Assembly (NCBI RefSeq): GCF_026391055.1
Contig: NZ_JAPLET010000026.1
Coordinates: forward strand, 496,001-560,000
Source of the DNA: Spirosoma sp.
GTDB lineage: Bacteria; Bacteroidota; Bacteroidia; Cytophagales; Spirosomataceae
Direction: 5' to 3'
Length of the DNA: 64,000 nt
The translations under genes were made by a program, and so were the position numbers. The notes under the pieces were generated by a model. That model searched no databases. It was not told where the DNA came from and saw only the letters and a program-made list of their open reading frames with translations. Shown here in pieces: positions 22,034 to 43,923 of this stretch. Each line of letters starts with the position of its first letter. The stretch's first letter is position 1.

Positions 22034-22672
22034 ATGAAAGTCGATTCGCTTGCTAACAAAGCTTATATTGAGATTAGACGAAAAATATTATCTAACCAAT
22101 TAGTAGCGGGCACTCGCTTAAAAGAAGATTTGTGGGCAAAAAAGATGGAGGTTAACCGGATAGCCGTTCGTGAGGCCCTAACCCGACTACAGGGCGAACA
22201 ACTGATTGTTTTTGGCGAGAAGGGCGGCTATTTCGTAAAGTCGATGACGGCCGATGACATTCGGGAAATACGGGAAATACGGGAAATCCTGGAGTTAGGA
22301 GCCCTACGGCTAGCCATTCAGAAGATTGACGAACAGCAGCTTGGCAGACTGGAAGAAATCTGTAATGATTTTACGTCTATGGTAGAAAGGGGATACCTGA
22401 GCGGTGCTCTAGAAGCCGACGTAAAATTCCACGAAACCCTGATCGACTGCGCTGGCAATTCAAAATTACTGGATATTTACCAGATCAGTAATATTCCTTT
22501 ATTCCACCAGAAAATCGGCAAAACTCAGATCCATATGGATGACTATGAGCAAACAGATCAGGAACATCGCCAGATCCTTAAAGCGCTAAAAGAGAAAAAC
22601 TTAGCCCTTGCCCAGGAAGCATTGACCCGGCATCTGCTCCGTGGCGAATCAGCTTCATTAGAAATTGAATAA
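22034..22672 (+). CDS. GntR-family transcriptional regulator (FCD subfamily)
   Basis: A 212-residue regulator. Residues 1-65 are a winged HTH (ANKAYIEIRRKILSNQLVAG, LKEDLWAKKMEVNRIAVREAL, LIVFGEKGGYFVK), the canonical GntR signature. Residues 75-205 are an FCD all-helical ligand domain (REIREIREILELGALRLAI ... EADVKFHETLIDCAGNSKLL ... DQEHRQILKALKEKNLALA). The D/H residues of that domain usually bind a metal and a sugar acid or other organic acid. The ATG at 22034 is chosen over a TTG at 21998 because the HTH begins right after it and the operator sits immediately before it. It is the likely local regulator of the following SusCD catabolic run, since the same operator occurs in front of both. 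Confidence 0.92.
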   Translation: MKVDSLANKAYIEIRRKILSNQLVAGTRLKEDLWAKKMEVNRIAVREALTRLQGEQLIVFGEKGGYFVKSMTADDIREIREIREILELGALRLAIQKIDEQQLGRLEEICNDFTSMVERGYLSGALEADVKFHETLIDCAGNSKLLDIYQISNIPLFHQKIGKTQIHMDDYEQTDQEHRQILKALKEKNLALAQEALTRHLLRGESASLEIE

Positions 22673-23171
22673 ACCCAAACCTGCCCCTAAACAGGATTCC
22701 CCCAGCAGCCCCCCTGCTTTCTTAGGCGCTCTCCCCGACCTGCTGTTCGTCACCACTTTATTGGCCATTGGCTCTCTCCTGGCCCTGCCTTCTTTTACGA
22801 TTAACACCAGTCTTAGCCCTGCTTGCCCCCCTGCTGTTCGGCCCTTCGGTTTGTAGAAATATATTTTTTTGTCTCTACTTTATTTTGTTTACAAAATTTA
22901 CCTTTATTTGTAGTCAAAAATAGTGAGACAAATTGTGTGGTTGCTAGTAAGCCGACCGAAAGACCATTGCCTGAAGTTTAATTTTCAGGTTTAATACCGA
23001 CTCTCTGGCGCAGGCTTCCTAACAGATACATACGCCCAAAAGCTCCATGACAATCCCTGGGGCTATCAGGAAACCTATTGCCCGACACGTCTCTATTGCA
23101 GCCCGATTCTCAGCGTACTTTTAACTACTATCTAACCTTTATCGAGCGGTTTTTTTACAAAAAGCTACCTT
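22673..23171. other. Long leader between the GntR gene and susC
   Basis: No supported gene; a short frame overlapping the GntR stop (22665-22856) is proline-rich with only a TTG start. The stretch holds the second operator (22883-22896), a 7-of-8 -7 element TTTATTTG at 22903-22910, and a weak 12-of-14 operator-like site at 23149-23162. If transcription starts near 22917, the susC leader is about 250 nt. Confidence 0.5.
22883..22896. promoter_or_regulatory. Second copy of operator TTTTGTTTACAAAA, upstream of susC
   Basis: Identical over 14 bases to the site at 22019-22032, and palindromic over 16 bases here apart from the centre (A at 22882, T at 22897). It lies 6 nt upstream of the candidate -7 element TTTATTTG (22903-22910), so bound regulator would block the polymerase. 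Confidence 0.65.
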
Positions 23172-26100
23172 ATGAAAACACAAGTAAAAGCATCAGTCAG
23201 TTGTCCTGATCGCAGTACAGGCAAGCACTTCTGGCGGGTCTTCCGTCTGACTATTTTTCTACTCGGTATTGAAGGGGCGTTGAGTCTGATGAACCTGTCT
23301 ACCGCAAATCGGGCCTTCGCACAGCAGGTAAGACAGCTTACAGGTCGCGTATTGGATAGCCAGAAAAACTCTGTTCCGGGCGCCACGATTGTGGCCAAAG
23401 GGAGTAATACGGGCGTTACAACCGATGCCGACGGAAAATTTACCCTTTCCATTTCCAATACGATCAGTTCACTCGTCATCTCCTATATTGGCATGACACC
23501 GCAGGAAATTGAAGTGGGGAATCGCTCTGCAATGGGTGATATCGTTCTGTCGGAAAGCAGCATGGTACTACGCGAAGTGGTCGTAACGGCACTAGGTATC
23601 GAACGAGCGGCCAAAACCATTACTTACTCGATCCAGAAACTTGGTGGTGAGCAAATTAATGAGGTGCGTGATGCTAACTTTACTAACACACTCTCCGGAA
23701 AAATTGCCGGTCTGACCATCACGCCATCGGCAAACGGCCCCGGCGGTGCTACCCGCATTGTGCTGCGGGGAAACCGCTCCATTCAAGGTTCCAACAATGC
23801 CCTGATCGTTGTCGACGGGGTGCCTATCGACAACTCAACGCCCGCAGGTCAGGTGCGAAGTGATGCCGGTGGACAAAGCGGCAGCGATGGCGCGTCGAGC
23901 ATAAACCCCGATGATATTGAGTCACTTAACGTACTGAAAGGAGCCGCCGGAGCCGCCTTGTATGGTAGCCGGGCCGCCAACGGAGTTATCATTATCACGA
24001 CGAAAAAAGGAAAAAGTGGTAAGCTTGACGTCAATATCAACTCAGGGGTGACTGTCGACCGGGCTTTAACCACACCCAGCTTACAGAACTCGTACGCTCA
24101 GGGATCGGGAGGAACCTACTCAACACTGGCAAGCGGAAGCTGGGGGCCAGCCATCAGCGGACAGAGCGTAACCAACTGGCAGGGCCAAACGGTTAATCTT
24201 CAAGCTTATCCCGATAATATCAAAGACTTTTTCCAGACTGCGGTTTCAACCAATAACTCAGTGGGCGTGAGTGGTGGTTCCGAAAAAATACAGACTTATC
24301 TGTCGTATTCGAACAATTACATCAACGGTATCGTACCTAATAACCGACTGTCGCGCAACACCTTCAATGGTCGGATGAGCGTCGATTTAACGAGTCGGCT
24401 ATCCGTCGATGCCAAGGTCACTTACATGCTTCAGAACATTTACGATAAGCCCGGTGTGGGTGGCGACGGCCTGGTAGTTGCCAACATTTTCAGGATTCCC
24501 CGAAGTGTGGACCCCGAAACCCTGAAGTCCTATAAGACGGTGAACCTCAGTGGAATTGAAACGCCCACCTACTGGACCACCACGGATGCCGTCTATATGA
24601 ATCCTTACTGGACGATAAACAATACCCACCACGACGAGAGCCGGAGTCGGGTAACGGGCCTGCTGGTGATGCGCTACAAACTTACCGACTGGCTGAACAT
24701 TCAGGGGCGTGTCAGCTCCGACAGTTACAACGACTTTATAACCCAGAAGTACGCCAACAATACCGTTAACTACGCTCGTCAGCCCGGTGGTTTTTATTCG
24801 GAAGGCAATGATTTCATTGCCGAGCACAATCTGGACGTATTACTAACCGGTACTAACCGGCTGACGGATGATTTGAAAGTAAACTATAACCTGGGTGGCT
24901 CTGTGCTGAGCCGGAGCCTGCGCCACCGTGTCAATGCGGCAGATGGTCTTGGCTTCCCCAACAAATATGACCTCAGCTATGCTACTACGCTGAAAGTAGA
25001 AGCCGTTACCAGTAAACGGGAACTTCAATCCGTTTACGGAACGGCCCAATTTGCCTATCGGGATTACCTGTTCCTGGACCTGACAGCCCGCAACGACTGG
25101 TCGAGCACGTTACCTTCGCCTTACGCCTACTTTTATCCATCTGTTGGTGTATCAGCTATCCTTTCCGAAATGGTCAGGATGCCCACCTGGATTAGCCTTG
25201 GCAAAGTTCGGGCCTCGGTAACCAAGGTGGGGAACGACGCCAGTCCTTATCTGTTAGGCCAGACGTATAGCTATATCCGTGGGGGCTTCGGCGGCTATAT
25301 TGCCAGCAGCAGCACCAAAGCTATATCGGACCTTAAACCAGAGCTGACCCAATCGCTGGAGATCGGTACGGAGTGGGGCTTTTACAACAACCGGCTGGGA
25401 CTTGATCTAACTTATTACAAAACCAACTCTCAGAACCAGTTGCTCCAGGTCGCGTCACCGGCCTCGTCCGGCTATTCGACGCTAAATGTGAATGCGGGCA
25501 ATATCCAGAACTCGGGTGTAGAGGTGGTGTTGACCGCTAAGCCAATTGTAACAAAGGATTTTACCTGGAGTATTGGCCTGAATTATGCCCGAAACACCAA
25601 TAAAGTACTTGAATTATATGAGGGAGTGAGCCTGTTTTACCTCGGTTCATCGGCCAACATACGTATGGCCACACCCGTTATCAAAGAGGGCGGTTCGTAC
25701 GGCGACCTCTATGGTTACAAATGGCAAAGAATGAACGATCAGTACGTGGTCAACGCCAATGGTGTACCGGTAAAAACCGACGCTATTGAAAAACTGGGCA
25801 ACTTTAACCCGAAGTTCACCGCCGGCTTAAGCAACAATTTCACCTACAAAAACTGGAACCTGAACCTGCTCATCGACGGCAAGTTTGGTGGAATAGTAAC
25901 TTCGGGCACATCCGCTCAGATGGCCTATGCGGGCACCTCGGCCAGTACGGCAACCTTCCGGGAAGCCAACTCCTGGCTCATTCCCGGTGTCACCCCCGAG
26001 GGTCAACCTAATACAGTCTCCGTAAATGCAGAGAAATTTTGGCAAACCGTTTCACAGGGCGACTACTCGTGGGGCGAGTTCTTCACCTACGACGCTACCA

Positions 26101-26363
26101 ATGTTCGGGTACGTGAATTGACACTGGGCTACAATTTTACCCGGCTGCCAGGCTTCTTCAAAAACGCCCGCCTATCGTTCGTAGCACGCAACCTGCTCTT
26201 CCTCTACCGGGGAAATGCCCTCCTCAACGTACCCGGTATTGGCAAACGGAAACTGGATTTCGACCCCGAGGTGAGCTTCGGCAACAGCAACTTCCAGGGT
26301 GTGGAGTACTATAACCTGCCATCGACCCGAAACATTGGTGTGAACCTCAAACTCTCTTTTTAA
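23172..26363 (+). CDS. SusC/RagA-family TonB-linked outer membrane protein
   Basis: A 1063-residue TonB-dependent importer for the substrate of the downstream run. An extended N-terminus with a signal peptide (about 1-50, ending NRAFA-QQ) is followed by a carboxypeptidase-D-like domain (LTGRVLDSQKNSVPGATIVAKG). The SusC-type junction VLREVVVTALGIERAAK comes next. The plug holds NALIVVDGVPIDN and LKGAAGAALYGSRAANGVIIITTKKG. The rest is a 22-strand barrel ending in FNLKLSF-like residues (NIGVNLKLSF). Length is normal. SusC works as a pair with the SusD lipoprotein that follows 11 nt later. The leader contains the putative GntR operator. Confidence 0.96.
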   Translation: MKTQVKASVSCPDRSTGKHFWRVFRLTIFLLGIEGALSLMNLSTANRAFAQQVRQLTGRVLDSQKNSVPGATIVAKGSNTGVTTDADGKFTLSISNTISSLVISYIGMTPQEIEVGNRSAMGDIVLSESSMVLREVVVTALGIERAAKTITYSIQKLGGEQINEVRDANFTNTLSGKIAGLTITPSANGPGGATRIVLRGNRSIQGSNNALIVVDGVPIDNSTPAGQVRSDAGGQSGSDGASSINPDDIESLNVLKGAAGAALYGSRAANGVIIITTKKGKSGKLDVNINSGVTVDRALTTPSLQNSYAQGSGGTYSTLASGSWGPAISGQSVTNWQGQTVNLQAYPDNIKDFFQTAVSTNNSVGVSGGSEKIQTYLSYSNNYINGIVPNNRLSRNTFNGRMSVDLTSRLSVDAKVTYMLQNIYDKPGVGGDGLVVANIFRIPRSVDPETLKSYKTVNLSGIETPTYWTTTDAVYMNPYWTINNTHHDESRSRVTGLLVMRYKLTDWLNIQGRVSSDSYNDFITQKYANNTVNYARQPGGFYSEGNDFIAEHNLDVLLTGTNRLTDDLKVNYNLGGSVLSRSLRHRVNAADGLGFPNKYDLSYATTLKVEAVTSKRELQSVYGTAQFAYRDYLFLDLTARNDWSSTLPSPYAYFYPSVGVSAILSEMVRMPTWISLGKVRASVTKVGNDASPYLLGQTYSYIRGGFGGYIASSSTKAISDLKPELTQSLEIGTEWGFYNNRLGLDLTYYKTNSQNQLLQVASPASSGYSTLNVNAGNIQNSGVEVVLTAKPIVTKDFTWSIGLNYARNTNKVLELYEGVSLFYLGSSANIRMATPVIKEGGSYGDLYGYKWQRMNDQYVVNANGVPVKTDAIEKLGNFNPKFTAGLSNNFTYKNWNLNLLIDGKFGGIVTSGTSAQMAYAGTSASTATFREANSWLIPGVTPEGQPNTVSVNAEKFWQTVSQGDYSWGEFFTYDATNVRVRELTLGYNFTRLPGFFKNARLSFVARNLLFLYRGNALLNVPGIGKRKLDFDPEVSFGNSNFQGVEYYNLPSTRNIGVNLKLSF

Positions 26364-26374
26364 ACGATTTGATC

Positions 26375-27961
26375 ATGTCTAAACGGCTATATTCCCTTTA
26401 TTCGGCAACCGCAAAGCTTATTGTGCTGGCGCTGGTAAGCATTGGCTTAGCCAATTGCACTAATCAGTTTGAAACGCTGAATACCGATCCAACCAAAATC
26501 AGCAGTGTTGGCAGTACTGAGTACCCATTTTTATTTGCCTACGCGCTGATGACACCCACGCTGAGCCCCGATAATTTTGAAGTAGGCGAAGGCACGGTAG
26601 CATCGGTATACTCTCAGTTCTTTGCTCAGGCAGCGCAGTCGTTCCCCACCGACCGGTATGTCGTCCGGCAGGACTGGATGCCCGCCTGCTGGAACCCCGT
26701 GTATACATCCGCAGCCCCGCAGCTCAAAACGATTATGGCAGGAACATCCCCACAATCGGCCGAAAATGCGGTGGCAACTGTCTGGTGGGTATGGATGTTC
26801 CACCGGGTAACCGATTATTTTGGCCCCATTCCTTACTTCGATGCGGCTTCGGGCAAGCGGTATATTTCGTACACTCCACAGGACTCTATTTATACTGATT
26901 TTTTCAAAAAATTAGAGGCAGCCTCTACCGTTTTGAAAGCCCGACCAACCGACAAACCATTCGGTACGTATGATCTGGTATATGGAAAAACCGCAAATCC
27001 GACAGTTGCCTGGATGAAACTGGCCAATACCCTGCGCCTGCGACTTGCCTTGCGGATTTCGAAAGTAAACCCGTCTCTGGCTAAACAACAGGCCGAAGCC
27101 GCCCTGGCAGCAGGCGTTATGACGGATATTGCCGATGACGCGTATATGCCCAAATCGACCACTACCTACAACGAATACAATGGGCTGGCGGTAACAGCAG
27201 GTTGGGACGATATTCGAATGAGCACCTCGATGGAGTCCATTTTAAAGGGCTATAACGACCCCCGACTACCTGTTTACTTCCAGCCAGCCGTTGCCACGGG
27301 CACCTACGAAGGGGTAAGGAATGGCCTGTTCACCTCCGAGAAGATCATTCCGATCAACTCCCGCCCCTATACCTCCAACATGGGTACTCGCTGGGTTAAC
27401 TGGGTCAATAATGACTGGAAAACGACCTATAATGTCCCGCAGGATTTGATGCACTCCGCCGAAGCGTACTTCCTGCGGGCCGAAGGTGCACTGAACGGCT
27501 GGAGTATGGGCGGCTCGGCCGAAGAACTGTACAAAAAAGGCATTGAAACATCGATGACTCAATGGGGTATTAAAGACCCCGCAGCTATTGCCGCTTATAT
27601 CAGCAACACAGCCGTACCGATTACCCCGCAGGATGGAATGAACTCGCCGGCCGTCAACGATTATCCGGTGAAATGGAGTGCATCGACCGATATGCAGCGA
27701 AAACAGATTGCGCAGCAGAAATGGCTGGCGCTCTACCCCGATGGCATGGAGGCCTGGGCCGATATACGTCGGAGCGGTCTGCCCAAACTGTACCCGGTCG
27801 TTCATTCCGAAAACACCGATCTGCCTACCGGTACCTTTATTCGGCGGATGCCATTCCTGGATTCGGAAAAGCAAACGAACGCGCCGGAAGTTGCCAAGGC
27901 CGTTAAGATGCTCAGCGGACCCGATAATGCCGCTACGCCACTTTGGTGGGACAAAAACTAG
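26375..27961 (+). CDS. SusD/RagB-family substrate-binding lipoprotein
   Basis: A 528-residue surface lipoprotein that caps SusC. The signal sequence ends in a lipobox (GLANC) with Cys28. The N-terminal NQFETLNTDPTKIS and the helical TPR-like repeats with YFLRAEGALNGW and LYKKGIETSMTQWG are typical of the SusD-like_2 (RagB) group. The C-terminus carries WLALYPDGMEAWADIRRSGLP, a hallmark of this group. The ATG at 26375 is preferred over a TTG two codons upstream. It follows susC at 11 nt and precedes the creatininase-like gene at 49 nt. Confidence 0.95.
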   Translation: MSKRLYSLYSATAKLIVLALVSIGLANCTNQFETLNTDPTKISSVGSTEYPFLFAYALMTPTLSPDNFEVGEGTVASVYSQFFAQAAQSFPTDRYVVRQDWMPACWNPVYTSAAPQLKTIMAGTSPQSAENAVATVWWVWMFHRVTDYFGPIPYFDAASGKRYISYTPQDSIYTDFFKKLEAASTVLKARPTDKPFGTYDLVYGKTANPTVAWMKLANTLRLRLALRISKVNPSLAKQQAEAALAAGVMTDIADDAYMPKSTTTYNEYNGLAVTAGWDDIRMSTSMESILKGYNDPRLPVYFQPAVATGTYEGVRNGLFTSEKIIPINSRPYTSNMGTRWVNWVNNDWKTTYNVPQDLMHSAEAYFLRAEGALNGWSMGGSAEELYKKGIETSMTQWGIKDPAAIAAYISNTAVPITPQDGMNSPAVNDYPVKWSASTDMQRKQIAQQKWLALYPDGMEAWADIRRSGLPKLYPVVHSENTDLPTGTFIRRMPFLDSEKQTNAPEVAKAVKMLSGPDNAATPLWWDKN

Positions 27962-28010
27962 TAGACTGATATTCAGTCCTAACCTTAGCCAGCTAGCCTG
28001 TTCGCCGAGC

Positions 28011-28805
28011 ATGACGTTTTCTGAACTTAGCTACCCACAAATTAACAATCATAAAGACAAGGTCCTTGTGCTGCCCATTGCCGCTATGGAGCAGCACGGA
28101 CCTCATCTTTCTGTCTCTACCGATACCGATATTGTTACCCGGCTGGCGGTCGAGGCCGAAAAGGCCCTGCCCGACCTGGTGCTGCTCTGTCCTACTCTGC
28201 CGTATGGATCAAGCCATCATCATCTCTCATTCGGCGGTACGATGAGTCTGGACCCGGAACTATACACGCAGGTAATTAGCTGTCTGGTAGAGTCGCTGAT
28301 CCTCAGCGGGCATCAGCGGATTGTGCTCCTGAACGGACATGGAGGCAACATTACGCCCGTAAAGCAGGCACTGGCCATAGTGAGCAAACGTTTCGATGCG
28401 AGTCATAAGCCAACCCTGGCGCTGGCAACGTACTGGGAGCTGGCCGGTTCCGTTTATGCGGGCGAACCGCCGATGGAAAGCCCCGCACTGAGTCATGCCT
28501 GCGAATACGAAACGAGTCTGATGCTGCATCTTTTTCCCGAAAAAGTCTGGATGGACCAGGCCGAACGGGCACAGCGACCGGAACGAAACGGCTACATAGG
28601 CTGGGAAGACGACGAGCCATATCGGGGTGTAACTGTATTCAAACAGACCGAATTTATTTCCGGCAACGGCAGCAGTGGCGAACCCCAACGGGGAACACCC
28701 GAAAAAGGAAAACATCTGTTCGACCATGCTGTATCGGCACTGGTCCAGTTCCTGGAAGCCTTCAAAACCTGGCCGTTATCTGAAAACCTGGCAACAAAAT
28801 TATGA
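28011..28805 (+). CDS. Creatininase-family amidohydrolase
   Basis: A 264-residue metal-dependent hydrolase of the creatininase fold. The signature AAMEQHGPHLS (metal-binding Glu and His), TDTDIVTRLA and LNGHGGNI are all present, as is the glutamate-rich HACEYETSLMLHL block near residue 165. The family opens cyclic amides (creatinine, lactams) or hydrolyses formamides; the substrate here is unknown. The ATG at 28011 is used. The frame extends upstream through the susD gene, but that part is out-of-frame susD sequence. It overlaps the RidA gene by 4 nt (ATGA), so translation is coupled. Confidence 0.9.
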   Translation: MTFSELSYPQINNHKDKVLVLPIAAMEQHGPHLSVSTDTDIVTRLAVEAEKALPDLVLLCPTLPYGSSHHHLSFGGTMSLDPELYTQVISCLVESLILSGHQRIVLLNGHGGNITPVKQALAIVSKRFDASHKPTLALATYWELAGSVYAGEPPMESPALSHACEYETSLMLHLFPEKVWMDQAERAQRPERNGYIGWEDDEPYRGVTVFKQTEFISGNGSSGEPQRGTPEKGKHLFDHAVSALVQFLEAFKTWPLSENLATKL

Positions 28806-29188
28806 GTAAACTGGAAATCAAACATCCCGATAAGGCCGCCAATACGGGTGCTTATTCGGCGGGGGTGCTGGCAGGTGACCTGCTGTTTATCAGCGGACAG
28901 GGCCCGCTGGATCTGGCAACGGGAGCGGTCCGGCACGGAACCATTGAAGAAGAAACCCTGCTCACGCTGTCGCACATCCGCAAGATTGTGGAAGCGGCTG
29001 GCGGCAGCATCGACGACATTGTAAAGTGTACTGTCCATCTGGAAGACATGCGCGAGTTCGACCGCTACGATGCCGCCTATGGCTCGTTTTTTAGCGGCAT
29101 ACGCCCGGCCCGCACCACGGTTCAGTCGGTGTTGTCGGACGGGATCAAAATCGAAATTGACGCCATTGCCCGAATATCCGGCAGATAA
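28802..29188 (+). CDS. RidA-family enamine/imine deaminase
   Basis: A 128-residue YjgF/YER057c/UK114 protein. LFISGQGPLDLATG near residue 30, DDIVKCTVHLEDMREFDRYDAAY in the middle and RPARTTVQS near residue 100 carry the conserved contacts, including the arginine that binds the carboxylate of the 2-aminoacrylate-type substrate. RidA proteins hydrolyse reactive enamines/imines released by PLP enzymes or amine-forming dehydratases. Its presence inside this run suggests an enamine or imine intermediate in the pathway (inference). Confidence 0.92.
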   Translation: MSKLEIKHPDKAANTGAYSAGVLAGDLLFISGQGPLDLATGAVRHGTIEEETLLTLSHIRKIVEAAGGSIDDIVKCTVHLEDMREFDRYDAAYGSFFSGIRPARTTVQSVLSDGIKIEIDAIARISGR

Positions 29189-29207
29189 AGCTCAACCCCG
29201 GCAACGT

Positions 29208-31300: not shown

Positions 31301-32238
31301 ACAAGTCAATTCAATCGTGGGCTATCCTGTTTTTTTGCAACCTGATCTGGGCCTTTCATTTTACGAGCATCAAGCTGACCCAGGCGCAGGTGGGGCCGTA
31401 TTTCACGGTTTGGGCACCTATGCTCCTGGCCACTATTTTTCTGGGGCCCTTTGTGATCCGGGACTTCCGCAAGGGTGGCAAGAAGTTGACCGACAGCCTG
31501 ATCTTCGTGCAGCTGGCAGCTTTGGGCGCTTTTCCATCGCAGGTACTGATGACTTGGGGAACGCAGTATTCGCTGGCCAGCAACGCAGCCATACTGGTCA
31601 TGACGCTGCCCGTGATTACGGCCGTGTTCGCCTTCCTGATTTTGAAAGAAAAGATGAATGCCGCCCGCTGGATCAGCTTTGCCATCGCCATCATCGGGGT
31701 GGCCCTCTGCTCAACCGACGACATTAAACGGGTGGATCTCAGTTCGCGCTATGCGCTGGGCAACGTCCTCATTTTTCTGGCCATTCTGGGCAATGCCTAT
31801 TACAACGTGGGCTGCAAAAAAGTATCGGGTCAGTACACCGAAATGGAGATGGTTTTTTACACCTATCTGGTCATGTCCATTCTGCTGACTCCGCTGGTGC
31901 TGTACTATGAGCCTGAGATGTTTGCCCGGGTGCCATTCTTTACCACAAACACCTGGATCGGCATGATCTCGCTCACACTTTTCCACAACTTCCTGTCGAT
32001 GCTCCTGTTTTTCAAAGCCCTGAAAAATCTGGACGCCACACAGGTTGCCTTGTCCAACTACCTCATCACGTTTATGGGCCTGCCCATTGCCGCCATCTGG
32101 CTTGGCGAAACCCTGAACCGACAGGCCATTATCGGCGGACTGCTCGTGCTGGCCTCAACGCTTATCCTATCCATTGTCGATACCAGAGTACAACAAAAGA
32201 AAGTAGCTAATCAAAATCAAGAACCGGCAAAGTTATGA
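31297..32238 (+). CDS. EamA/DMT-family inner-membrane transporter
   Basis: A 313-residue protein with about ten transmembrane helices in two EamA repeats. Typical landmarks are FCNLIWAFHFTSIKL at the first helix, LMTWGTQYSLASNAAIL in the middle, and ALSNYLITFMGLPIAAIWLGE near the end. DMT transporters move small metabolites such as amino acids or sugar derivatives; here it probably carries the product released in the periplasm. It is translationally coupled on both sides (ATGA overlaps at 31297 and 32235). Confidence 0.92.
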   Translation: MNKSIQSWAILFFCNLIWAFHFTSIKLTQAQVGPYFTVWAPMLLATIFLGPFVIRDFRKGGKKLTDSLIFVQLAALGAFPSQVLMTWGTQYSLASNAAILVMTLPVITAVFAFLILKEKMNAARWISFAIAIIGVALCSTDDIKRVDLSSRYALGNVLIFLAILGNAYYNVGCKKVSGQYTEMEMVFYTYLVMSILLTPLVLYYEPEMFARVPFFTTNTWIGMISLTLFHNFLSMLLFFKALKNLDATQVALSNYLITFMGLPIAAIWLGETLNRQAIIGGLLVLASTLILSIVDTRVQQKKVANQNQEPAKL

Positions 32239-36100: not shown

Positions 36101-36105
36101 CCGCA

Positions 36106-37194
36106 ATGAACAATACCTTTCAGTTTTTAAGTCCTATTGATGGGGATATGATCCACGCCCGCGATGGCGTGACAACGGCTGACGGACTGGAGATCGATGT
36201 ACAGTTCTCCGCCCCTTCGTCGCACGTCTTAACAATCAACGGCATCAGCGCAACCTATGCCAAGGGCATCTTCTCCGGAAAAATCCGGCTGAATCAGGCC
36301 AAAAATTCGATCACCGTTTACGATTATACTACCGCCGAAAGCAGGCAGATTACCGTTTACCTGCTTCCCCATTTTGCAGGCCATTACCGCCTGTCGATTG
36401 ACGATAACATCTGGTTTCTGCGGGATATTTATCAGCAACAGGACAATTACCCGTCGCTGTTCGACAATCCGTATTTAGGCTTTCTGAAGCAAGTGCACGA
36501 CACCTACGGCACTACCATTCACCTCAATCTTTTTTACGAAACGGAAGGGTTCAACCTATCGCAATTTCCGGATCGTTTCAAGCCGGAATGGCAGGCCAAT
36601 GCCGATTGGCTCCGACTGAGTTTTCATGCCCGGAGCGAATTTCCTGACCGCCCCTACCAGCAGGCAGGTTATGAGCAGGTGAAACACGACTGCGACTGTG
36701 TAAAAGAACAGATTTTACGGTTCGCGGGAGAGACCGTAATGGGACCTGTAACGACGCTGCACTGGGGCGAAGCTACGGTTGAAGGCTCGCGAGCCCTACG
36801 CGATGCGGGCTATATCGCGCAACTGGGCTACTTCAACGTCGATGATGAGCTGCCGCCCGTTTCGTATTACCTCACGGTGGAACAGCGCCGGAATATGAAA
36901 AAGCGGTTCGTCTGGCACGATAATCAGGAAGGCATCACCTTCGTCCGGGCCAGTATCGTCATCGATAAAACCGGACTTTCCGACATTGTCCCGTTTCTGG
37001 ACAACTATGCGGACAAGCCGTCGGGTCTGCCGCCGTTTGTCGATTTACTCGTTCATGAGCAATATTTCTACCCCTTTTACGAAGCTTACCAGCTCGACTT
37101 CCGGGAGCGTGTTCTGACCGCCGTAAAATGGGCCGCCGACAAAGGCTATACCCCTGCTTTTCTGGGCGATTGTCTTTTCACTGACGCGCCGTAA
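36106..37194 (+). CDS. NodB/polysaccharide deacetylase-like protein
   Basis: A 362-residue protein without a signal peptide. The first ~90 residues look like a small beta-domain. The following part has HYRLSIDDNIWFLRD, resembling the DD metal motif, then LRLSFHARSEFPDRPY, resembling the HxxxH(P) motif, and TTLHWGEATVEGSRALRDAGY. This is the order seen in NodB-fold carbohydrate esterases. The metal triad is not complete by eye, so deacetylase activity is only a suggestion. It lies between the GH20 and GH109-like genes in the same run. Confidence 0.65.
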   Translation: MNNTFQFLSPIDGDMIHARDGVTTADGLEIDVQFSAPSSHVLTINGISATYAKGIFSGKIRLNQAKNSITVYDYTTAESRQITVYLLPHFAGHYRLSIDDNIWFLRDIYQQQDNYPSLFDNPYLGFLKQVHDTYGTTIHLNLFYETEGFNLSQFPDRFKPEWQANADWLRLSFHARSEFPDRPYQQAGYEQVKHDCDCVKEQILRFAGETVMGPVTTLHWGEATVEGSRALRDAGYIAQLGYFNVDDELPPVSYYLTVEQRRNMKKRFVWHDNQEGITFVRASIVIDKTGLSDIVPFLDNYADKPSGLPPFVDLLVHEQYFYPFYEAYQLDFRERVLTAVKWAADKGYTPAFLGDCLFTDAP

Positions 37195-37232
37195 AGACGC
37201 AGGGGATTGTGTTTACACAAACGAAAACGAAC

Positions 37233-38654
37233 ATGGAAAACACGCGACGAAATTTCTTGAAAAAAGCCGGGCTAAGTGGCCTGGGACTGGTTGCCGCCAG
37301 TCCGTTTGCCACTTACGCCACCACGCCGGAAGCACTGGTAAGCATTGGCGAACAAGCGGCCCGAACACCTCCGCAAGTCTTCAACATGAGCGGGTATGCC
37401 GCACCAAAGCTGGATGTTGTCCGCATTGGCATTGTCGGCATCGGTAACCGGGGCATGGGGGCGGTGGAGCGGATGAACAAAATTGAAGGCGTTGCCATAA
37501 AAGCCCTTTGCGACTTGCGTCCCGAGCGGGTAAATCTGGCGCAGAAACTCGTGGAAGCCAGTGGTCACCGCCCGCAAATGTATTCGGGAAGCCCCGAAGC
37601 CTGGAAGAAACTCTGCGAACGAACCGACCTCGACCTGATTTACATTCTTACGCCCTGGGCACTGCACACGCCCATTGCGGTCTTCTCCATGAATCACGGC
37701 AAGCACGTTTGCGTGGAGGTTCCGGCAGCCAAAACGCTCGAAGAATGCTGGCAGTTGGTCGAAACCTCGGAGCGGACCAGGAAACACTGTATGATGACCG
37801 AAAACTGCTGCTACGACTTCACCGAGTTGCTCACGCTGAACATGGCGCGGCACGGCTTCTTCGGCGACATAGTCCATTGCGAGGGTTCCTATATCCATAA
37901 CCTGCAGGAACTGGTCTTTTCGAAAGATCACTTCTATCAGATGTGGGAATTGACCGAAATGTATAAGCGTACCGGCAACCTCTACCCCACCCACGGCCTG
38001 GGGCCAATCTGTCAGGTGCTTGACATCAACCGGGGCGATCAGATGGATTATCTGGTCTCCATGTCCAGTAATGACTTTGTGTTGGGCAATATGGCTCGTT
38101 CTCTGGCGACCAGCGACGATTTTTACAAGCCCTACGCTGGAAAGCCCTACAACGGTAATATGAATACAAGCACCATCCGTACCAAAAAAGGAAAGACCAT
38201 TATGGTGCAGTTCGACGTCTCTTCTCCCCGACCCTATTCACGGATTCAACTGGTTAGCGGCACCAAAGGGGTAGCTCTGAAATACCCCGAACCAGCCCGC
38301 TACTCAACGGGGCATGAGTGGATGACGGAACAGGAAATCAAATCCATTGAGCAAAAATACATGCCGCCCATCGTGAAAAAAATGGGCGAAGTCGCGAAAA
38401 ACGTGGGCGGTCATGGTGGGATGGATTTTCTGATGGATTGGCGTACCATCGACTGCCTTCGGAATGGGCTCCCGCTCGACCAGGACGTCTATGATGCCGC
38501 CCTGTGGAGTTCGGTAGGGCCGTTGAGCGCATGGTCGGTAGCGCATCGCTCCAATTCGATCGATGTCCCCGATTTTACGGGCGGATCCTGGCAGAAAAAC
38601 AAACCCATCGACATTTCGATGACCCAGGGTGGAAATACACAGGCAAAAGTGTAG
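37233..38654 (+). CDS. GH109-like Gfo/Idh/MocA protein (alpha-N-acetylgalactosaminidase family)
   Basis: A 473-residue protein with a Tat signal (TRRNFLKKAGLSG). The NAD-binding Rossmann motif VRIGIVGIGNRGMGAV follows. The block NLYPTHGLGPICQVLDINRGD and YLVSMSS is highly characteristic of family GH109, whose members use bound NAD in a redox-elimination mechanism to cleave alpha-GalNAc. Length agrees with that family. The ATG at 37233 is used; a GTG at 37209 would put eight residues before the Tat motif. Activity on alpha-linked N-acetylhexosamine is inferred from family membership. Confidence 0.85.
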   Translation: MENTRRNFLKKAGLSGLGLVAASPFATYATTPEALVSIGEQAARTPPQVFNMSGYAAPKLDVVRIGIVGIGNRGMGAVERMNKIEGVAIKALCDLRPERVNLAQKLVEASGHRPQMYSGSPEAWKKLCERTDLDLIYILTPWALHTPIAVFSMNHGKHVCVEVPAAKTLEECWQLVETSERTRKHCMMTENCCYDFTELLTLNMARHGFFGDIVHCEGSYIHNLQELVFSKDHFYQMWELTEMYKRTGNLYPTHGLGPICQVLDINRGDQMDYLVSMSSNDFVLGNMARSLATSDDFYKPYAGKPYNGNMNTSTIRTKKGKTIMVQFDVSSPRPYSRIQLVSGTKGVALKYPEPARYSTGHEWMTEQEIKSIEQKYMPPIVKKMGEVAKNVGGHGGMDFLMDWRTIDCLRNGLPLDQDVYDAALWSSVGPLSAWSVAHRSNSIDVPDFTGGSWQKNKPIDISMTQGGNTQAKV

Positions 38655-38747
38655 GCACTCTGTTGGATACCGCGCTGGAGTTACCTGCGGCACTAACCCA
38701 AAAAAAATAGCCTAACATTCAATAACTTAGCACATAAAACTATCTAT

Positions 38748-39749
38748 ATGCATACCGGCCGACGAACCTTTATGAAGCAGGCAACCCAAAGCTGTGCGGC
38801 ATTGCTGCTGGCCCCTTCCTCACTCAGGGCCAGCCTGGCTGTGGCCACCGGCAAACGGGTAGGCATTATCGGACTGGATACGTCGCACAGTACCGCCTTT
38901 GTCAAAGCCCTCAACGGCCCCGACCCCAATGCCGGTTTTTTAGGATACAAAGTCGTGGCGGCCTATCCGCAAGGCAGTAAAGACATCGAAAGCAGCACCT
39001 CGCGGGTACCGGCCTACACCGAAGAAGTAAAAAAGCAGAACGTCGAAATCGTCAGCACGATCAGCGATTTACTCAAAAAAGTCGATGTGGTGTTGCTGGA
39101 AACGAACGATGGCCGGCTCCATCTCGAACAGGCGATTCAGGTCCTGAAAGCTGGCAAACGCCTGTTTATCGACAAACCCGTTGCGGCTTCATTGCCAGAT
39201 GCCATTGCTATTTACGAAGCTTCCCGAAAATACAACATTCCGCTCTTTTCGGCCTCTTCCCTGCGGCATATCAAAGGGATTGAACAGGTCGACAAGCGCA
39301 AGGTTGTAGGGGCCGATACGTTCAGCCCTGCTGTTCTCGAAAAAACCCACCCCGATTTTTTCTGGTACGGCATTCACGGCGTTGAAACGCTGTATACCGT
39401 CATGGGAACGGGTTGCAAACAGGTGGTTCGGGTACATACCGACGGCACCGATATCATTGTGGGTACCTGGGCCGATGGCCGCATCGGTACGGTTCGTGGT
39501 ACCCGTACGGGCAGGCACGATTACGGCGGTACGGTCTTTACCCAGACGGGCAACCTTGTCTTGGGGCCATACGGTGGGTATGAACCCCTTTTACAGGATA
39601 TTATAACTTATTACGAGACGGGCGAAGTACCCGTTACGCCTGAGGAGACTATCGAGATTTTCGCCTTTATGGAAGCTGCGGATGAAAGCAAACGTCGCGG
39701 GGGGGCGCCCGTTACCCTCGAAAGTGTCATGGCTAAAGCAACGAAATAA
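38748..39749 (+). CDS. Tat-signal Gfo/Idh/MocA-family oxidoreductase
   Basis: A 333-residue protein. The start MHTGRRTFMKQA is a twin-arginine signal. It is followed by KRVGIIGLDTSHSTAFVKAL, a Rossmann strand with a modified glycine motif. LFIDKPVAASLPDAIAIY contains the EKP-like motif (DKP here) of this family. It is distinct from the GH109-like protein before it and shorter. It probably oxidises or epimerises a sugar outside the cytoplasm; the substrate is unknown. Confidence 0.85.
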   Translation: MHTGRRTFMKQATQSCAALLLAPSSLRASLAVATGKRVGIIGLDTSHSTAFVKALNGPDPNAGFLGYKVVAAYPQGSKDIESSTSRVPAYTEEVKKQNVEIVSTISDLLKKVDVVLLETNDGRLHLEQAIQVLKAGKRLFIDKPVAASLPDAIAIYEASRKYNIPLFSASSLRHIKGIEQVDKRKVVGADTFSPAVLEKTHPDFFWYGIHGVETLYTVMGTGCKQVVRVHTDGTDIIVGTWADGRIGTVRGTRTGRHDYGGTVFTQTGNLVLGPYGGYEPLLQDIITYYETGEVPVTPEETIEIFAFMEAADESKRRGGAPVTLESVMAKATK

Positions 39750-39767
39750 CCTTAACCACCCAACAGC

Positions 39768-41180
39768 ATGTCGCATCCCAATGTATCAAGAAGGGAGTTT
39801 TTAAAGCGAAACTCGTTAACGGGTCTGAGCGCCATCCTGACGCCTTCGTTACTCACCAATACGCCCGCACTCACCTCTGGAACAACAAAAGCCCCTGTAC
39901 AGTCGGGTTCGTTTTCGCTGGCAGAGCCCCCGGCCCTGCTGGGTGGCAAACCCATCCGAACCGCCGAATGGCCGGTATGGCCCATCTGGAAACCCGAGCA
40001 GGACGAAAAACAGTTGCTTGACGTGATTCGCGGTGGCATCTGGTCGAGGGCTAGCGTGGTGAGTGAGTTTGAAGCCAAATGGGCAGCTACCCTCGGGGTT
40101 AAACGGTCGCTGGCAGTCGTAAATGGTACCAACGCCATCATGGCAGCACTGGCCCAGTTGGATATTCGCGGGGGCGACGAAGTGCTGGTACCGCCTTACA
40201 CGTTTATTGGAACGGTAGCCCCCGTACTGGCAACGGGAGCCATGCCCGTATTCGTGGATGTTGACCCCGAAACGTTCCAGATCGACCCGGCCCGGATTGA
40301 AGCGAAGATCACCCCCCGGACGAAGGCAATTATTCCGGTGCATATCCTGGGGCTACCAGCCAATATGCCGCAGATTCTGGCCATTGCCAAAAAACATAAT
40401 CTGGTCGTTATTGAGGATGCCTGTCAGGCGCATCTGGCCGAAATCAGTCATCAGAAAGTGGGGACCTTCGGACATGCGGGCTGCTTTAGCTTTCAGAACT
40501 CCAAGAACCTGGCCATTGGCGAAGGGGGAGCCATTGTTAGTAATGATGATGCCTTTATGGACCGCTGTTTCTCGTACCATAATTACGGGAATCCGTACGG
40601 TATGGTATCGGGCGTTATCGGTGCGGGTACGCTAATCCAGGGCACGAAACTCCGCCTAACCGAATACCAGGCGGCTATCGGCCTGGCGCAGCTGAAACGG
40701 CTCGATGCCGAAACGACTACGCGAAACACCAACGCGACCTACCTGAAAGCCAAAATCAGCAGCATACCGGGTATTGTTCCCTATAAACTTTACGACAGTG
40801 TAACACGGGCGGCCTTCCATCTTTTTCCGTTTCGGTACAAAAAAGAATCCTTCAAAGGCCTTTCGCGTGATGTGTTTCTGAAGGCCCTTACGGCGGAGGG
40901 GATTCCCTGTTCGAAAGGGTACGCCACGCTGAACAACATGCCTTACCTTAACGACGCTTTCCAGTCGAAAAATTTCCAGAAGATGTATCCCAAAGGCATG
41001 CTGAACTTCAACAGCTACGTAGAGCGGAACCAATGCCCGCAAAACGACCGGCTGTGCAATGAGGAAGCCGTCTGGTTTACGCAGAATATGCTGCTGGGTA
41101 GTCAGTCCGACATGGATGACATTGCCCGTGCCATCGAGAAAATTTACACCTACGCGGATAAACTCCTGAGTCAGAAATGA
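39768..41180 (+). CDS. DegT/DnrJ/EryC1/StrS aminotransferase with Tat signal
   Basis: A 470-residue PLP-dependent enzyme. It opens with SRREFLKRNSLTGLSAIL, a twin-arginine signal and hydrophobic stretch. The aminotransferase domain begins near residue 55 (LLGGKPIRTAEWPVWP). It has LAVVNGTNAIMAALAQLDI, VLVPPYTFIGTVAPVLATGA, VVIEDACQAH, and CFSFQNSKNLAIGEGG with the Schiff-base Lys246. All PLP-site elements are present. Such enzymes transaminate keto sugars or cyclitols. Export of a PLP sugar aminotransferase is unusual and suggests chemistry on the substrate in the periplasm, or an amine-removing reaction run in reverse (inference). Confidence 0.88.
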   Translation: MSHPNVSRREFLKRNSLTGLSAILTPSLLTNTPALTSGTTKAPVQSGSFSLAEPPALLGGKPIRTAEWPVWPIWKPEQDEKQLLDVIRGGIWSRASVVSEFEAKWAATLGVKRSLAVVNGTNAIMAALAQLDIRGGDEVLVPPYTFIGTVAPVLATGAMPVFVDVDPETFQIDPARIEAKITPRTKAIIPVHILGLPANMPQILAIAKKHNLVVIEDACQAHLAEISHQKVGTFGHAGCFSFQNSKNLAIGEGGAIVSNDDAFMDRCFSYHNYGNPYGMVSGVIGAGTLIQGTKLRLTEYQAAIGLAQLKRLDAETTTRNTNATYLKAKISSIPGIVPYKLYDSVTRAAFHLFPFRYKKESFKGLSRDVFLKALTAEGIPCSKGYATLNNMPYLNDAFQSKNFQKMYPKGMLNFNSYVERNQCPQNDRLCNEEAVWFTQNMLLGSQSDMDDIARAIEKIYTYADKLLSQK

Positions 41181-42538
41181 GCAACAGACCAGGAGTTATC
41201 TGGCTCTTGTGGCTGGTTGTATTTATCGATATCCCGGCTTCGGCTCAGGGCTGGAAAGCGGGAACGGCCCGCGTGATAATCACGCCCAAAGAACCCCTCT
41301 GGCAGGCGGGTTACGCATCCCGTACGCACGCTGCCGATGGTAAACTACACGACCTATGGGCCAAAGCGCTGGCGCTGGAAGACAGTACGGGCAAGCGGGC
41401 TGTGCTGGTCACGACCGATATGCTGGGGTTCCCCAAAGCGATGTCCGACCGGATTCGAGCCCGACTGAACAGCCAGTTTGGTCTGTCGAAGGCGCAGGTC
41501 ATTCTCAATAGTTCACACACCCATTCGGGGCCAGTGCTGGATAATGCTCTGCAGGATATTTATCCGCTCGATACGAAGGAGCAAGAGAAAATTGATCGAT
41601 ACTCCCGATGGCTGGAAACACAGATTGTGACTCTGGCGAGTCAGGCGTTGCAGAAACTGGCACCAGCCACCCTATTCTCTCAAAATGGGGTTACTCGATT
41701 TCAGGTGAATCGCCGGGCTAATAAAGAGAATGCTCTGCCGGAACAAACGGAGCTGAAAGGGCCGAACGACTATGCCGTTCCTGTGATCCGGATTATTGAT
41801 GCCAGGGGGAAGCTTAAAGCCATCGTGTTTGGGTATGCCTGCCACCCCACCGTGCTGGATTTATACCAATGGTCGGGAGATTACGCAGGCTTTGCTCAAT
41901 TGGAGCTGGAAAAAGCGCACCCTGGTGCCACCGCGCTGTTTTTTCAGGGCGCAGCCGGAGATCAGAACCCACTGCCCCGACGAACCATTCCGCTGGCTCG
42001 TCAGTATGGGCGGGAATTGGCCGCTGCCGTTGATCGTGTACTCGACGAACCCATGCGAAACCTGTCACCGCAGCTCCGCACGGCTTATTCGGAAATTGAA
42101 CTCCCCCTTTCGGCTCCGCCTTCCGAAGCAGAACTGATAAAAACAAGTCAGGATGGCGAAGGCTATATGAAACGCTGGGCAACGCGTCTGCTGGCCGAAA
42201 CGAAGCAGGGCAAACCCTTTATAACCAGCTATCTGTACCCGTTGCAGATCTGGCAGCTAGGCAGCCAGCCTATCCTGAGCTTTGGGGGCGAACTCGTAGT
42301 TCAGTACGCTCTCGACTGTAAAAAACGATTCGGGCAGGGCATTTTCGTGATGGGCTACGCCAACGATGTGATGGGTTATATTCCCTCAGTCACCATTTTA
42401 CGGGAAGGTGGTTACGAAGGCGCTTCATCGCAGATGGTGTACGGCCTGCCGAGCATCTGGGCAGCGGAAGTTCCGACCCTGATTGACCGGGAGATTAACC
42501 GGCTTGCCGAACAGATAGGCCTGACTACGTTGAAGTAA
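41177..42538 (+). CDS. Neutral/alkaline non-lysosomal ceramidase-like hydrolase
   Basis: A 453-residue exported protein (signal peptide 1-23, PASA-QG). The N-terminal WKAGTARVIITP and the zinc motif NSSHTHSGP (His114, His116) match the neutral ceramidase N-terminal domain, with a later YACHPTVLD histidine block. The C-terminal immunoglobulin-like domain of true ceramidases is absent. Members of this truncated group are common beside sugar-enzyme clusters in Bacteroidota, so an amide bond in an N-acylated sugar or lipid may be the real target (inference). It overlaps the aminotransferase gene by 4 nt. Confidence 0.85.
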   Translation: MSNRPGVIWLLWLVVFIDIPASAQGWKAGTARVIITPKEPLWQAGYASRTHAADGKLHDLWAKALALEDSTGKRAVLVTTDMLGFPKAMSDRIRARLNSQFGLSKAQVILNSSHTHSGPVLDNALQDIYPLDTKEQEKIDRYSRWLETQIVTLASQALQKLAPATLFSQNGVTRFQVNRRANKENALPEQTELKGPNDYAVPVIRIIDARGKLKAIVFGYACHPTVLDLYQWSGDYAGFAQLELEKAHPGATALFFQGAAGDQNPLPRRTIPLARQYGRELAAAVDRVLDEPMRNLSPQLRTAYSEIELPLSAPPSEAELIKTSQDGEGYMKRWATRLLAETKQGKPFITSYLYPLQIWQLGSQPILSFGGELVVQYALDCKKRFGQGIFVMGYANDVMGYIPSVTILREGGYEGASSQMVYGLPSIWAAEVPTLIDREINRLAEQIGLTTLK

Positions 42539-42621
42539 TCTATATGTGAATCACAATACCGAATCCAGTCAACCCGGAGATCAATTACTAGGCGGCCAAT
42601 TAACAGACCTTTGACAGAAAC

Positions 42622-43923
42622 ATGATGAATCCAGTTACCGAAACCGATGTGGCCCCTTCATTGATCGCAACCCCGTATTATTCAGGCTTTGCGCTGGCAC
42701 ACGATACGTACAATGCCATTACCGCTGCCAGCGACGGTAAAATCTACTACGTCCTCTCCTCCGAGTCATACGAGCAGGGCGGGCAGATGTACGTATACGA
42801 CCCCGCTACCGACAGTACGAACTGGCTGGCCGATTTAACCGACATCTGTGGTGAAGCAAAAGCCAATGCCATTCCGCAGGGCAAAAGCCACGTCCGGTTT
42901 TACGAAAGCAACGGCAAGTTGTATTTCGCTACGCACATTGGCGTCTACGAACTGATCGACGGTATGGAGCAACTTCCGCAAAACGTACCCAATGGCAGAA
43001 AACGCTACCCCGGCGGACATTTCATTTCCTACGATTTGGCCTCGGGCGAGTTTCAGAATCTGGCCATCGCCCCCGAAGGGGAAGGCATTCTGACTATGAC
43101 CATCGACCACGTTCGCGGGCATCTGTACGGCATCACCTGGCCGCTGGGCTACTTTATCGACTACAACATTCGGGCAAACAGTCTCAAGACCGTCGGGCTC
43201 GTTTCGGCCAGAGGAGAAGCGGGTGTTCCTGGAGCCGACTACCGGGTTCTATGTCGTTCGATGGTAGTTGACCCACTCGATGGAGCGGTCTATTTTTCAA
43301 CCTCGGAAGGCGATATTGACACGTATCACCCCGACAAGGCAGGGATACAGAAACTTGACAACGTCGATTTACGGCTCGATTACTTCGGAAAGTATGACCC
43401 TACGCGTCCTGGAAGCATGGGGTACAACTGGCGCAAAATATTCTGGTATGCCCCCGAAGAAGTGGCCTACGGCATCCACGGCAACTCAGGTTACCTGTTC
43501 AAATTCGACCCGCGTCAGCAACGGATCGAACTCGTTGAGCGACTTACCTCTGAGCCATCCCGTAAAAGCGGCATGTTCGACCAGTTCAGCTACGGCTATC
43601 TGGGTTTTCAGCTAGGGCCCGATCAAAAAACTATTTACTACCTCACGGGCGGCCCCATTTACATCAACGGCAAACGAGTAAAGGGCGAAGACCAGATTGC
43701 CAGAGGGGGAGCCAAAGGGCTCGAAAATCTGCACCTGATCACGTTCCACATTCAAAGCAGAACCTACCGCGACCACGGCCCTATTGTTTACGCCGATGGC
43801 ACCCGGCCAACCTACGTAAATTCGCTGGCAATCGGTGCCGATGGGTCGGTGTATACCCTCGCCCGATTCGATCATAACGGTCATGAAATTCAGGATTTAG
43901 TCAAGATTCCGGCGGTGGTTTAA
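42622..43923 (+). CDS. Beta-propeller-like protein of unknown function
   Basis: A 433-residue protein without signal peptide. Repeating beta-blade elements can be seen: DGKIYYVLSSES..YVYDPATDS, NGKLYFATHIGVYEL, RGHLYGITWPLGYFIDYNI, DGAVYFSTSEGDIDTY, YLFKFDPRQQR and ADGSVYTLARF. These suggest six or seven blades. The sequence resembles cytoplasmic propeller lyases or lactonases only in fold. It is the last gene of the collinear run. ATGs at 42622 and 42625 are both possible starts. Confidence 0.7.
   Translation: MMNPVTETDVAPSLIATPYYSGFALAHDTYNAITAASDGKIYYVLSSESYEQGGQMYVYDPATDSTNWLADLTDICGEAKANAIPQGKSHVRFYESNGKLYFATHIGVYELIDGMEQLPQNVPNGRKRYPGGHFISYDLASGEFQNLAIAPEGEGILTMTIDHVRGHLYGITWPLGYFIDYNIRANSLKTVGLVSARGEAGVPGADYRVLCRSMVVDPLDGAVYFSTSEGDIDTYHPDKAGIQKLDNVDLRLDYFGKYDPTRPGSMGYNWRKIFWYAPEEVAYGIHGNSGYLFKFDPRQQRIELVERLTSEPSRKSGMFDQFSYGYLGFQLGPDQKTIYYLTGGPIYINGKRVKGEDQIARGGAKGLENLHLITFHIQSRTYRDHGPIVYADGTRPTYVNSLAIGADGSVYTLARFDHNGHEIQDLVKIPAVV

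Follow-up and report, generated by a model that had tools for sequence, protein, structure and literature searches.

A conserved SusCD-led gene cassette of Spirosoma and its relatives that probably imports acetylated amino-sugar glycans and degrades a sugar acid derived from them

Comparison with described systems

The nearest worked-out system that we found to the gene cassette described here, a SusCD-led run of Spirosoma sp. (positions 22034 to 43923 of a 64-kb stretch of DNA, hereafter the window, from a genome of 8.0 Mb in 31 contigs), is the ong pathway of Pseudoalteromonas prydzensis for oxidative chitin (GlcNAc1A) catabolism (PMC9537276). In that pathway, N-acetylglucosaminic acid and its oligomers are degraded by a GH20 enzyme, a deacetylase, a deaminase of the pyridoxal phosphate (PLP) type, KdgK and a RidA protein of unexplained role; cells need the RidA protein to grow on GlcNAc1A and GH20 to grow on GlcNAc-GlcNAc1A (PMC9537276). 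The cassette resembles ong in TonB-dependent uptake, a periplasmic GH20, an inner-membrane carrier, a RidA-requiring cytoplasmic degradation and a dedicated repressor, all features of ong, whereas the run in the window gave no Pfam or NCBIfam match to the D-aminoacylase-type OngB, the PLP-type OngC, the KdgK kinase or the SSS carrier. Instead, it has creatininase-family, enolase-superfamily, 3-hydroxyacyl-CoA-dehydrogenase-family (3HAD), DapA-like, short-chain dehydrogenase (SDR) and EamA proteins. The sole PLP-family protein of the run is a DegT aminotransferase with a twin-arginine translocation (Tat)-type leader, and a chitin-active lytic polysaccharide monooxygenase (LPMO), another element of the ong comparison, was not found either, LPMO_10 being present in 0 of 200 genomes of the window's family. 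The core of the cassette could do the same job as ong with unrelated enzymes, and by analogy the locus may work like it rather than being a member of an ong-type pathway.

Like the SusCD-type polysaccharide utilization loci (PULs) of Bacteroidota, the cassette contains adjacent SusC and SusD genes, exported glycoside hydrolases and other glycan-active enzymes (leaders read by eye) and a local regulator. The usual regulators of such PULs are SusR, hybrid two-component or sigma-factor types, whereas here there is a GntR/FCD regulator together with a complete cytoplasmic module of acid-sugar type. Non-phosphorylative sugar-acid pathways (De Ley-Doudoroff, L-arabinose, and the L-rhamnose/L-fucose diketo routes) offer a further parallel in their enolase-superfamily enzyme, DHDPS-family lyase and dehydrogenases, and an L-rhamnonate-type hydrolase follows the SDR gene at some related loci; the cassette differs in having in addition RidA and a creatininase-family hydrolase, and its enolase-type protein falls far below the models of characterized dehydratases. 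The initial annotation of this DNA, made from the sequence alone, knew of no described locus with this gene set, and we found none in the literature either, judging by titles and the starts of abstracts, with most subscription papers outside that scope. The locus is a conserved, uncharacterized variant of a known locus type.

Gene content and organization of the cassette

Open reading frame (ORF) calls and profile searches placed a GntR/FCD regulator and 16 collinear genes behind it at 22034-43923, all on the plus strand, the number of genes given by the initial annotation. This 17-gene cassette has ATGA overlaps at five junctions (28802, 30167, 31297, 32235 and 41177), where four or more had been reported. 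We tentatively read it as a SusCD-type utilization locus whose target is a glycan or glycoconjugate with N-acetylhexosamine in it, and whose core would degrade a derived sugar acid without phosphorylation; it probably imports acetylated-amino-sugar glycans and degrades the acid by means of six enzymes and a transporter (core 1 to 7). Its features are as follows:

22019-22032, just upstream of the gntR start codon: palindromic operator candidate TTTTGTTTACAAAA
22034-22672, plus strand: GntR/FCD-family regulator (FCD, 85.8 bits; GntR, 43.3 bits)
22883-22896, between gntR and susC: second exact palindrome copy
23172-26363, plus strand: SusC-type TonB-dependent transporter (Pfam)
26375-27961, plus strand: SusD-type lipoprotein (SusD-like, 383.9 bits)
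28011-28805, plus strand: core 1, creatininase-family hydrolase (Pfam Creatininase, 210 bits; NGHGGN stretch)
28802-29188, plus strand: core 2, RidA-family protein (Pfam)
29208-30170, plus strand: core 3, 3HAD NAD-dependent dehydrogenase (Pfam)
30167-31300, plus strand: core 4, enolase-superfamily (MR_MLE) enzyme (Pfam; KFK motif, altered strand-5 and strand-6 positions)
31297-32238, plus strand: core 5, EamA inner-membrane transporter (Pfam)
32235-33188, plus strand: core 6, DapA/DHDPS-family lyase (DHDPS, 91 bits; nearest L-2-keto-3-deoxyarabonate dehydratase)
33230-33973, plus strand: core 7, SDR (Pfam)
34034-36100, plus strand: GH20 family protein (conserved FIHvGFDETWET stretch; Sec-type leader by eye)
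36106-37194, plus strand: "NodB-like" protein (label unconfirmed), Ig-like plus alpha/beta domain
37233-38654, plus strand: GH109 family protein (Pfam; Tat-type leader by eye)
38748-39749, plus strand: unit 2, Gfo/Idh/MocA oxidoreductase (Tat-type leader by eye)
39768-41180, plus strand: unit 2, DegT aminotransferase (nearest glutamine:scyllo-inosose aminotransferases; Tat-type leader by eye)
41177-42538, plus strand: unit 2, short neutral-ceramidase-like hydrolase (Sec-type leader by eye)
42622-43923, plus strand: unit 2, propeller-like protein (no leader seen by eye)

Pfam backed the gene labels of the initial annotation except two, "NodB-like" and propeller, which lacked a significant match in the window copies.

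Conservation and co-inheritance of the core

Apart from the window's own, 31 of the family genomes searched had the enolase-superfamily gene, and about 40 kb (35.6 kb in one case) around it was read in 20 of them (G labels denote family genomes, the window's own being G000; L labels include the 44 loci from named genomes). The core genes lay on one strand in the order creatininase-family–RidA–3HAD–enolase-superfamily–EamA–DapA-like–SDR in 20/20, and all seven were present, ordered on one strand, at 35 of the 44 loci found by a scan of named genomes (at least 45% identity); gene order in relatives, which the initial annotation had put forward as a check, is thus conserved. The hosts of these loci were Spirosoma, Runella, Arsenicibacter, Larkinella, Rudanella, Dyadobacter and Chitinophagaceae, together with unclassified Bacteroidetes and Sphingobacteriales metagenome-assembled genomes, one Pedobacter and one distant Latescibacterota (33% identity). 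Runella limosa and Dyadobacter fermentans are among the host species. Among the nine loci without a complete core, two (L080 and L104) were interrupted by contig ends, L086 lacked the SDR, four lacked RidA (see below), and at L108 (Pedobacter) and L115 (Latescibacterota) only 2/7 and 0/7 core genes, respectively, reached 45% identity. The Latescibacterota contig carries four tandem matches to the enolase-superfamily protein of the window (L115:3261-8056, 31-33% identity).

Across 200 genomes of the family, the enolase-superfamily gene was found in 32 (own included), the DapA-like gene in 31 (E ≤ 1e-60) and the "NodB-like" gene in 30 (E ≤ 1e-30), the latter two always within the same 32 genomes when the lists were compared by eye. 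Homologues in other genomes therefore do co-occur, a point on which the initial annotation had let its single-pathway idea stand or fall. A phylum-wide draw of 395 genomes contained the enolase-superfamily gene in five, own included, and the distribution of the core across the phylum is patchy. In a tree of this gene (42 rows) the genera mostly clustered and two Dyadobacter rows (L086 and L112) fell elsewhere; lateral transfer of the core is only suspected, because the deep forks were weak.

Linkage to N-acetylhexosamine genes

The GH109-like protein matched solved GH109 enzymes over most of its length (331 bits to 6t2b, named GH109 protein 2, and 212 bits to 2ixa, an alpha-N-acetylgalactosaminidase), has the GH109 C-terminal domain and carries the stretches YPTHGLGP and GGHGGMDF, which were kept by each of 25 aligned rows. 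The GH20 protein keeps GFDETWET in 25 rows and has beta-N-acetylhexosaminidases as its closest solved relatives (rows in these motif alignments exclude sequences of less than 50% identity, less than 80% coverage or odd length). The GH109 stretches and the Asp-Glu pair of GH20 have defined roles in their families, and both proteins are assigned to these families on the grounds of their sequence.

The flanks of the core were surveyed up to 10 kb on either side of the gene at the 44 loci. Similarity to GH20, GH109 or GH123 occurred near 32/44 cores, a figure that rises to 37/44 with NagA/NagB-like genes included; of 40 control windows, each of 20 kb, none had any. This contrast is not a p-value, because the 44 loci are related to one another and every control was taken from a family genome that has the core. 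Seven of the same control windows had an SDR match, and matches to RidA, to DegT and to a GH27 type each turned up in a single window. Pfam confirmed GH123 in L101, and similarity identified it in L108 and L110. In L101, a di-haem MauG/CCP-type protein (1467-3293) lies beside GH123, before the core, and similar-sized genes are found at L108 and L110. At 4/44 loci (L097, L100, L107 and L113) genes for a major facilitator superfamily (MFS) carrier and NagA-like and NagB-like proteins lie about 1.5 kb upstream of the core, and in three genomes of the same genus (G188, G152 and G121) the same set appears downstream of unit 2, behind further genes (labels from Pfam on one representative each, the carrier being MFS by Pfam).

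A second locus of N-acetylhexosamine type is present in the own genome, at about 59-76 kb of contig 19 (G000:C19, L173/L174). It contains a Gfo gene (72% to the window copy), a propeller (67%), another Gfo-like gene, SusC, a carrier of MFS type, a NagA above the curated cut-off, a NagB-like gene under it (125 bits, cut-off 237) and a gene weakly similar to GH20 (24% across 0.59 of the query), as well as a LacI-type regulator and a SusD-type gene recognized by eye. Because of the linkage to GH20, GH109, GH123, NagA and NagB and because of this second locus, we consider it probable that N-acetylhexosamine is part of the substrate, as had been proposed initially; GH109 and GH123 weakly favor N-acetylgalactosamine over N-acetylglucosamine.

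Palindrome and regulation

Around gntR the palindrome TTTTGTNNACAAAA was outstanding, with an occurrence in 23/38 pieces; in five base-shuffled sets no palindrome exceeded 2, AT-run palindromes excepted, which reached 8. The window contains two exact copies and the whole genome one more; when one mismatch was allowed, two or more sites were found in 3/100 shuffled windows. At this tolerance, all 18 gntR-bearing regions have a site in the interval from gntR to the next SusC gene, 11/18 have one upstream of gntR and 6/18 have one immediately upstream of the core (G188, G161, G058, G169, G199 and G166). Over the 20 regions there were 39 sites, two of them elsewhere, against 1 in one base-shuffled set, and the two regions without gntR had none. 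Where unit 2 is divergent from the core (see below), a site separates Gfo from gntR in 4/8 genomes. GntR would be the protein that binds TTTTGTNNACAAAA. A promoter and terminator scan of 26000-45000 gave matches no more frequent than in shuffles.

Predicted functions of the core enzymes

The core proteins are predicted to be cytoplasmic, because no leader was seen on them by eye, and EamA would sit in the inner membrane. General motif knowledge was the basis for reading the Sec leaders and the twin-arginine stretches, the latter found by eye at the starts of the GH109-like (TRRNFLKK), Gfo/Idh (GRRTFMKQ) and DegT (SRREFLKR) proteins.

The 3HAD protein is closest to 5-formyl-3-hydroxy-2-methylpyridine-4-carboxylate dehydrogenase (163 bits) and, in an alignment of relatives, retains the SNTS, HWxEPAH, MEVICG and TNR stretches, which hold the catalytic residues of the family. 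RidA keeps PARTTVQSVL and EIDA in 38 rows. The creatininase-family protein stays below the curated models for creatininase (101 of 235 bits), MftE (125 of 172) and IolN (65 of 245). The DapA-like protein belongs to the DHDPS family, with the lysine of YLKLEEP, the Schiff-base lysine, invariant in 41 rows. Its nearest solved relative is 7c0c, an L-2-keto-3-deoxyarabonate dehydratase (90 bits), a nearest match that would put it in the dehydratase branch and leaves the "aldolase" of the initial annotation unproven. At 7/44 loci a fumarylacetoacetate (FAA) hydrolase gene is located directly 3' of the SDR, and two of these proteins, tested with NCBIfam, matched the 2,4-didehydro-3-deoxy-L-rhamnonate hydrolase model at 212 and 224 bits (cut-off 500); at 2/44 an RraA-like aldolase stands between DapA and SDR. 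Both would fit a 2-keto-3-deoxy acid intermediate.

The enolase-superfamily protein is closest to muconate-cycloisomerase and acylamino-acid-racemase types, its best curated match being the muconate cycloisomerase family (103.8 bits, cut-off 335), and retains KFK, DPN and LEDP. Foldseek with its predicted structure pointed to the enolase superfamily and no finer. In this superfamily the acid of strand 5 and the lysine of strand 6 have defined roles. One of the two flanking bases is gone, which makes a racemase less likely and a one-base elimination plausible.

A second, detachable unit

The gntR gene, a SusC/SusD pair, a GH20 orthologue and the "NodB-like" and GH109 genes accompany the core in 18/20 family genomes, G148 and G130 being without orthologues. 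GH20 follows the SDR in 14 genomes; in four others (G058, G169, G166 and G199, in the last as two pieces) it comes after SusD and ahead of the core. Seven relatives have a SusC/SusD pair of the window's type and eleven have one of another type. The Gfo-DegT-ceramidase-like-propeller set is complete in 13/20, on the same strand downstream in 5 and divergent beyond gntR in 8, incomplete in G161 (no DegT or propeller) and G058 (the ceramidase-like gene alone), and missing altogether from the region in five. The propeller, which alone within unit 2 was covered by the genome-wide search, occurs in 67/200 family genomes, 27/32 with the core and 40/168 without. Because these four genes are incomplete or relocated in relatives and the propeller is found in core-less genomes, they are a second unit, often linked to the core and separate from it, and on the same grounds the reading of all 16 genes as one unit was dropped. 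The run as a whole is modular.

The propeller-like protein had no significant Pfam match in the window copy, nor did its profile give anything meaningful against the PDB; a homologue at L116 has weak Kelch/beta-propeller matches. The window's DegT sugar aminotransferase with its Tat-type leader is presumably a periplasmic PLP enzyme, also found at L097, L100, L107 and L092. In 9/20 relatives (G188, G152, G121, G004, G161, G075, G124, G086 and G058) a DUF7133/HEAT gene follows the propeller or ceramidase-like gene, and in six of the nine a small HiPIP-like Tat-type protein comes next (e.g., L035/L055); these labels, from Pfam on one representative each, suggest a periplasmic redox pair.

Proposed pathway and alternatives

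In the route that we tentatively propose for this utilization locus, SusCD would take up glycan fragments, from which GH20 and GH109, joined in some relatives by GH123 or a protein of heparinase II/III type, would free N-acetylhexosamine-type units in the periplasm. EamA would move the derived sugar acid into the cytoplasm, where the creatininase-family hydrolase would take off the N-acetyl group or open a lactone. The enolase-superfamily enzyme would then abstract the alpha proton of a 2-amino-2-deoxyaldonate and eliminate the 3-hydroxyl, RidA would hydrolyze the imine to 2-keto-3-deoxyaldonate and ammonia, and the two dehydrogenases and the DapA-like lyase would lead to central metabolites, with the whole locus regulated by GntR via TTTTGTNNACAAAA. 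The enolase-superfamily enzyme and RidA would thereby replace the PLP deaminase that the marine ong pathway uses. That the core removes nitrogen from amino sugars free of kinase and PLP, by an enolase-superfamily elimination and with RidA as an ordinary pathway enzyme rather than for damage control, we consider rather unlikely as a specific claim. If RidA were indeed a stoichiometric pathway enzyme here, this would suggest why ong needs its RidA protein OngD, a question that the authors of that study leave open. The proposal would make a compact cassette of Spirosomaceae- and Chitinophagaceae-type genomes an uncharacterized amino-sugar-acid route, with a common substrate testable for at least four enzymes of so-far unassigned specificity.

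Several observations weigh against this proposal. The enolase-superfamily protein scored 29-67 bits with the curated dehydratase models, far under their cut-offs, and in three alignments it has H247 (invariant in 16 rows) at the strand-5 acid position and no lysine at the strand-6 position. Because of these low scores and missing residues, dehydratase activity is only a guess, and the sugar-acid dehydratase of the initial annotation gives way to a protein nearer to other types. Its predicted structure has a mean pLDDT (predicted local distance difference test) of 64.7, with the second half of the barrel poor. At L087, L096, L102 and L110, RidA gave no match at E ≤ 0.01 while the other six core genes were present; there is no space for it in L096, L102 and L110, and about 150 bases in L087. 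The enamine intermediate initially proposed would fit RidA and the ong precedent, with RidA missing from these four loci. The search for LPMO_10 that returned 0/200 covered the own genome as well (control set, 1/14 rings), so that the source of the sugar acid in ong is missing, and LPMO-derived oxidized chitin was dropped as the acid source. No hexosamine marker was seen at seven loci: L080 and L104 (both cut), L115, L098, L099, L109 and L114. L098 and L099 each have one GH27-like gene by eye, for which NCBIfam gave nothing in the one tested; just before the core lie Tat-type proteins of about 700 aa, two at L109 (1756-7643) and three at L114 (649-7636), and the one checked (L114:5534-7636) had no Pfam match. 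Finally, the NagA/NagB-like genes by some cores would allow an ordinary hexosamine route, leaving the core for a different sugar.

The alternative that survives best, doubtful but serious, takes up this last point: the glycan would combine N-acetylhexosamine with a different acidic or oxidizable sugar (a uronate, or a 6-deoxyhexose via its aldonate), GH20, GH109 and the Nag enzymes would take the hexosamine and the core the other sugar, and RidA would clear stray enamines. It keeps a sizeable share of the probability because of the RidA-less loci, the NagA/NagB-like neighbors (with the MFS carrier, at the four named loci and in the three genomes of the same genus), the low dehydratase scores and the absence of LPMO_10. 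Further support comes from a heparinase II/III-type gene near 3/44 cores and UxuA near 2/44, from the L-rhamnonate pathway type to which the FAA hydrolase is closest, and from the match of 3HAD to lambda-crystallin (81 bits), which has an L-gulonate dehydrogenase role. However, RidA is present at 37/44 loci, cut loci included; hexosamine markers are found by 37/44 loci and uronate-type genes by few; and uronate isomerase, GH88 and polysaccharide lyase families were not reported among the Pfam results for the window's run.

Considerably less probable is a scheme in which Gfo/Idh and the GH109-like protein, both with Tat-type leaders, would produce a 3-oxidized (3-keto) amino sugar in the periplasm, DegT would exchange amino groups and the core would act on this sugar. 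The Tat-type leaders of three proteins from NAD- or PLP-binding families, the weak scores (28-32 bits) that the GH109-like protein obtained with models of glycoside and disaccharide 3-dehydrogenases and the closeness of DegT to scyllo-inosose aminotransferases are consistent with it, but G169, G199, G166, G148 and G130 have the core with no Gfo or DegT in its 40-kb region, and contig 19 has Gfo and propeller without the core. Neighbors without a common role, as the shifts of unit 2 and the swapped SusCD types might suggest, are very unlikely given the fixed core order at 35/44 loci, the co-inheritance in 200 genomes and the common palindrome.

The "NodB-like" protein and neighboring genes

The NodB label found no backing in Pfam, PDB profiles or folds. 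No polysaccharide-deacetylase Pfam match was obtained at E up to 10 (HMMER filters discard most matches above 0.1), and no deacetylase appeared among the PDB profile matches listed or the best 50 folds listed. The protein has a sub-cut-off Pfam match to an Ig-type domain (Glucodextran_B), and its best domain-scale folds among those 50 were 5d6t (Sph3) and 2e67, with a TM (template modeling) score of about 0.5 by target length.

Directly before gntR, a 1507-aa ORF (17373-21896), by eye a multi-PAS sensor histidine kinase, has a high-identity (91%) counterpart only in G167 among 20 relatives. The gene next after the run encodes a photolyase (44140-45810), and a second, weaker ceramidase-like protein lies outside the run at 47185-48468 (28 bits, where Pfam sets its cut-off at 32.1).

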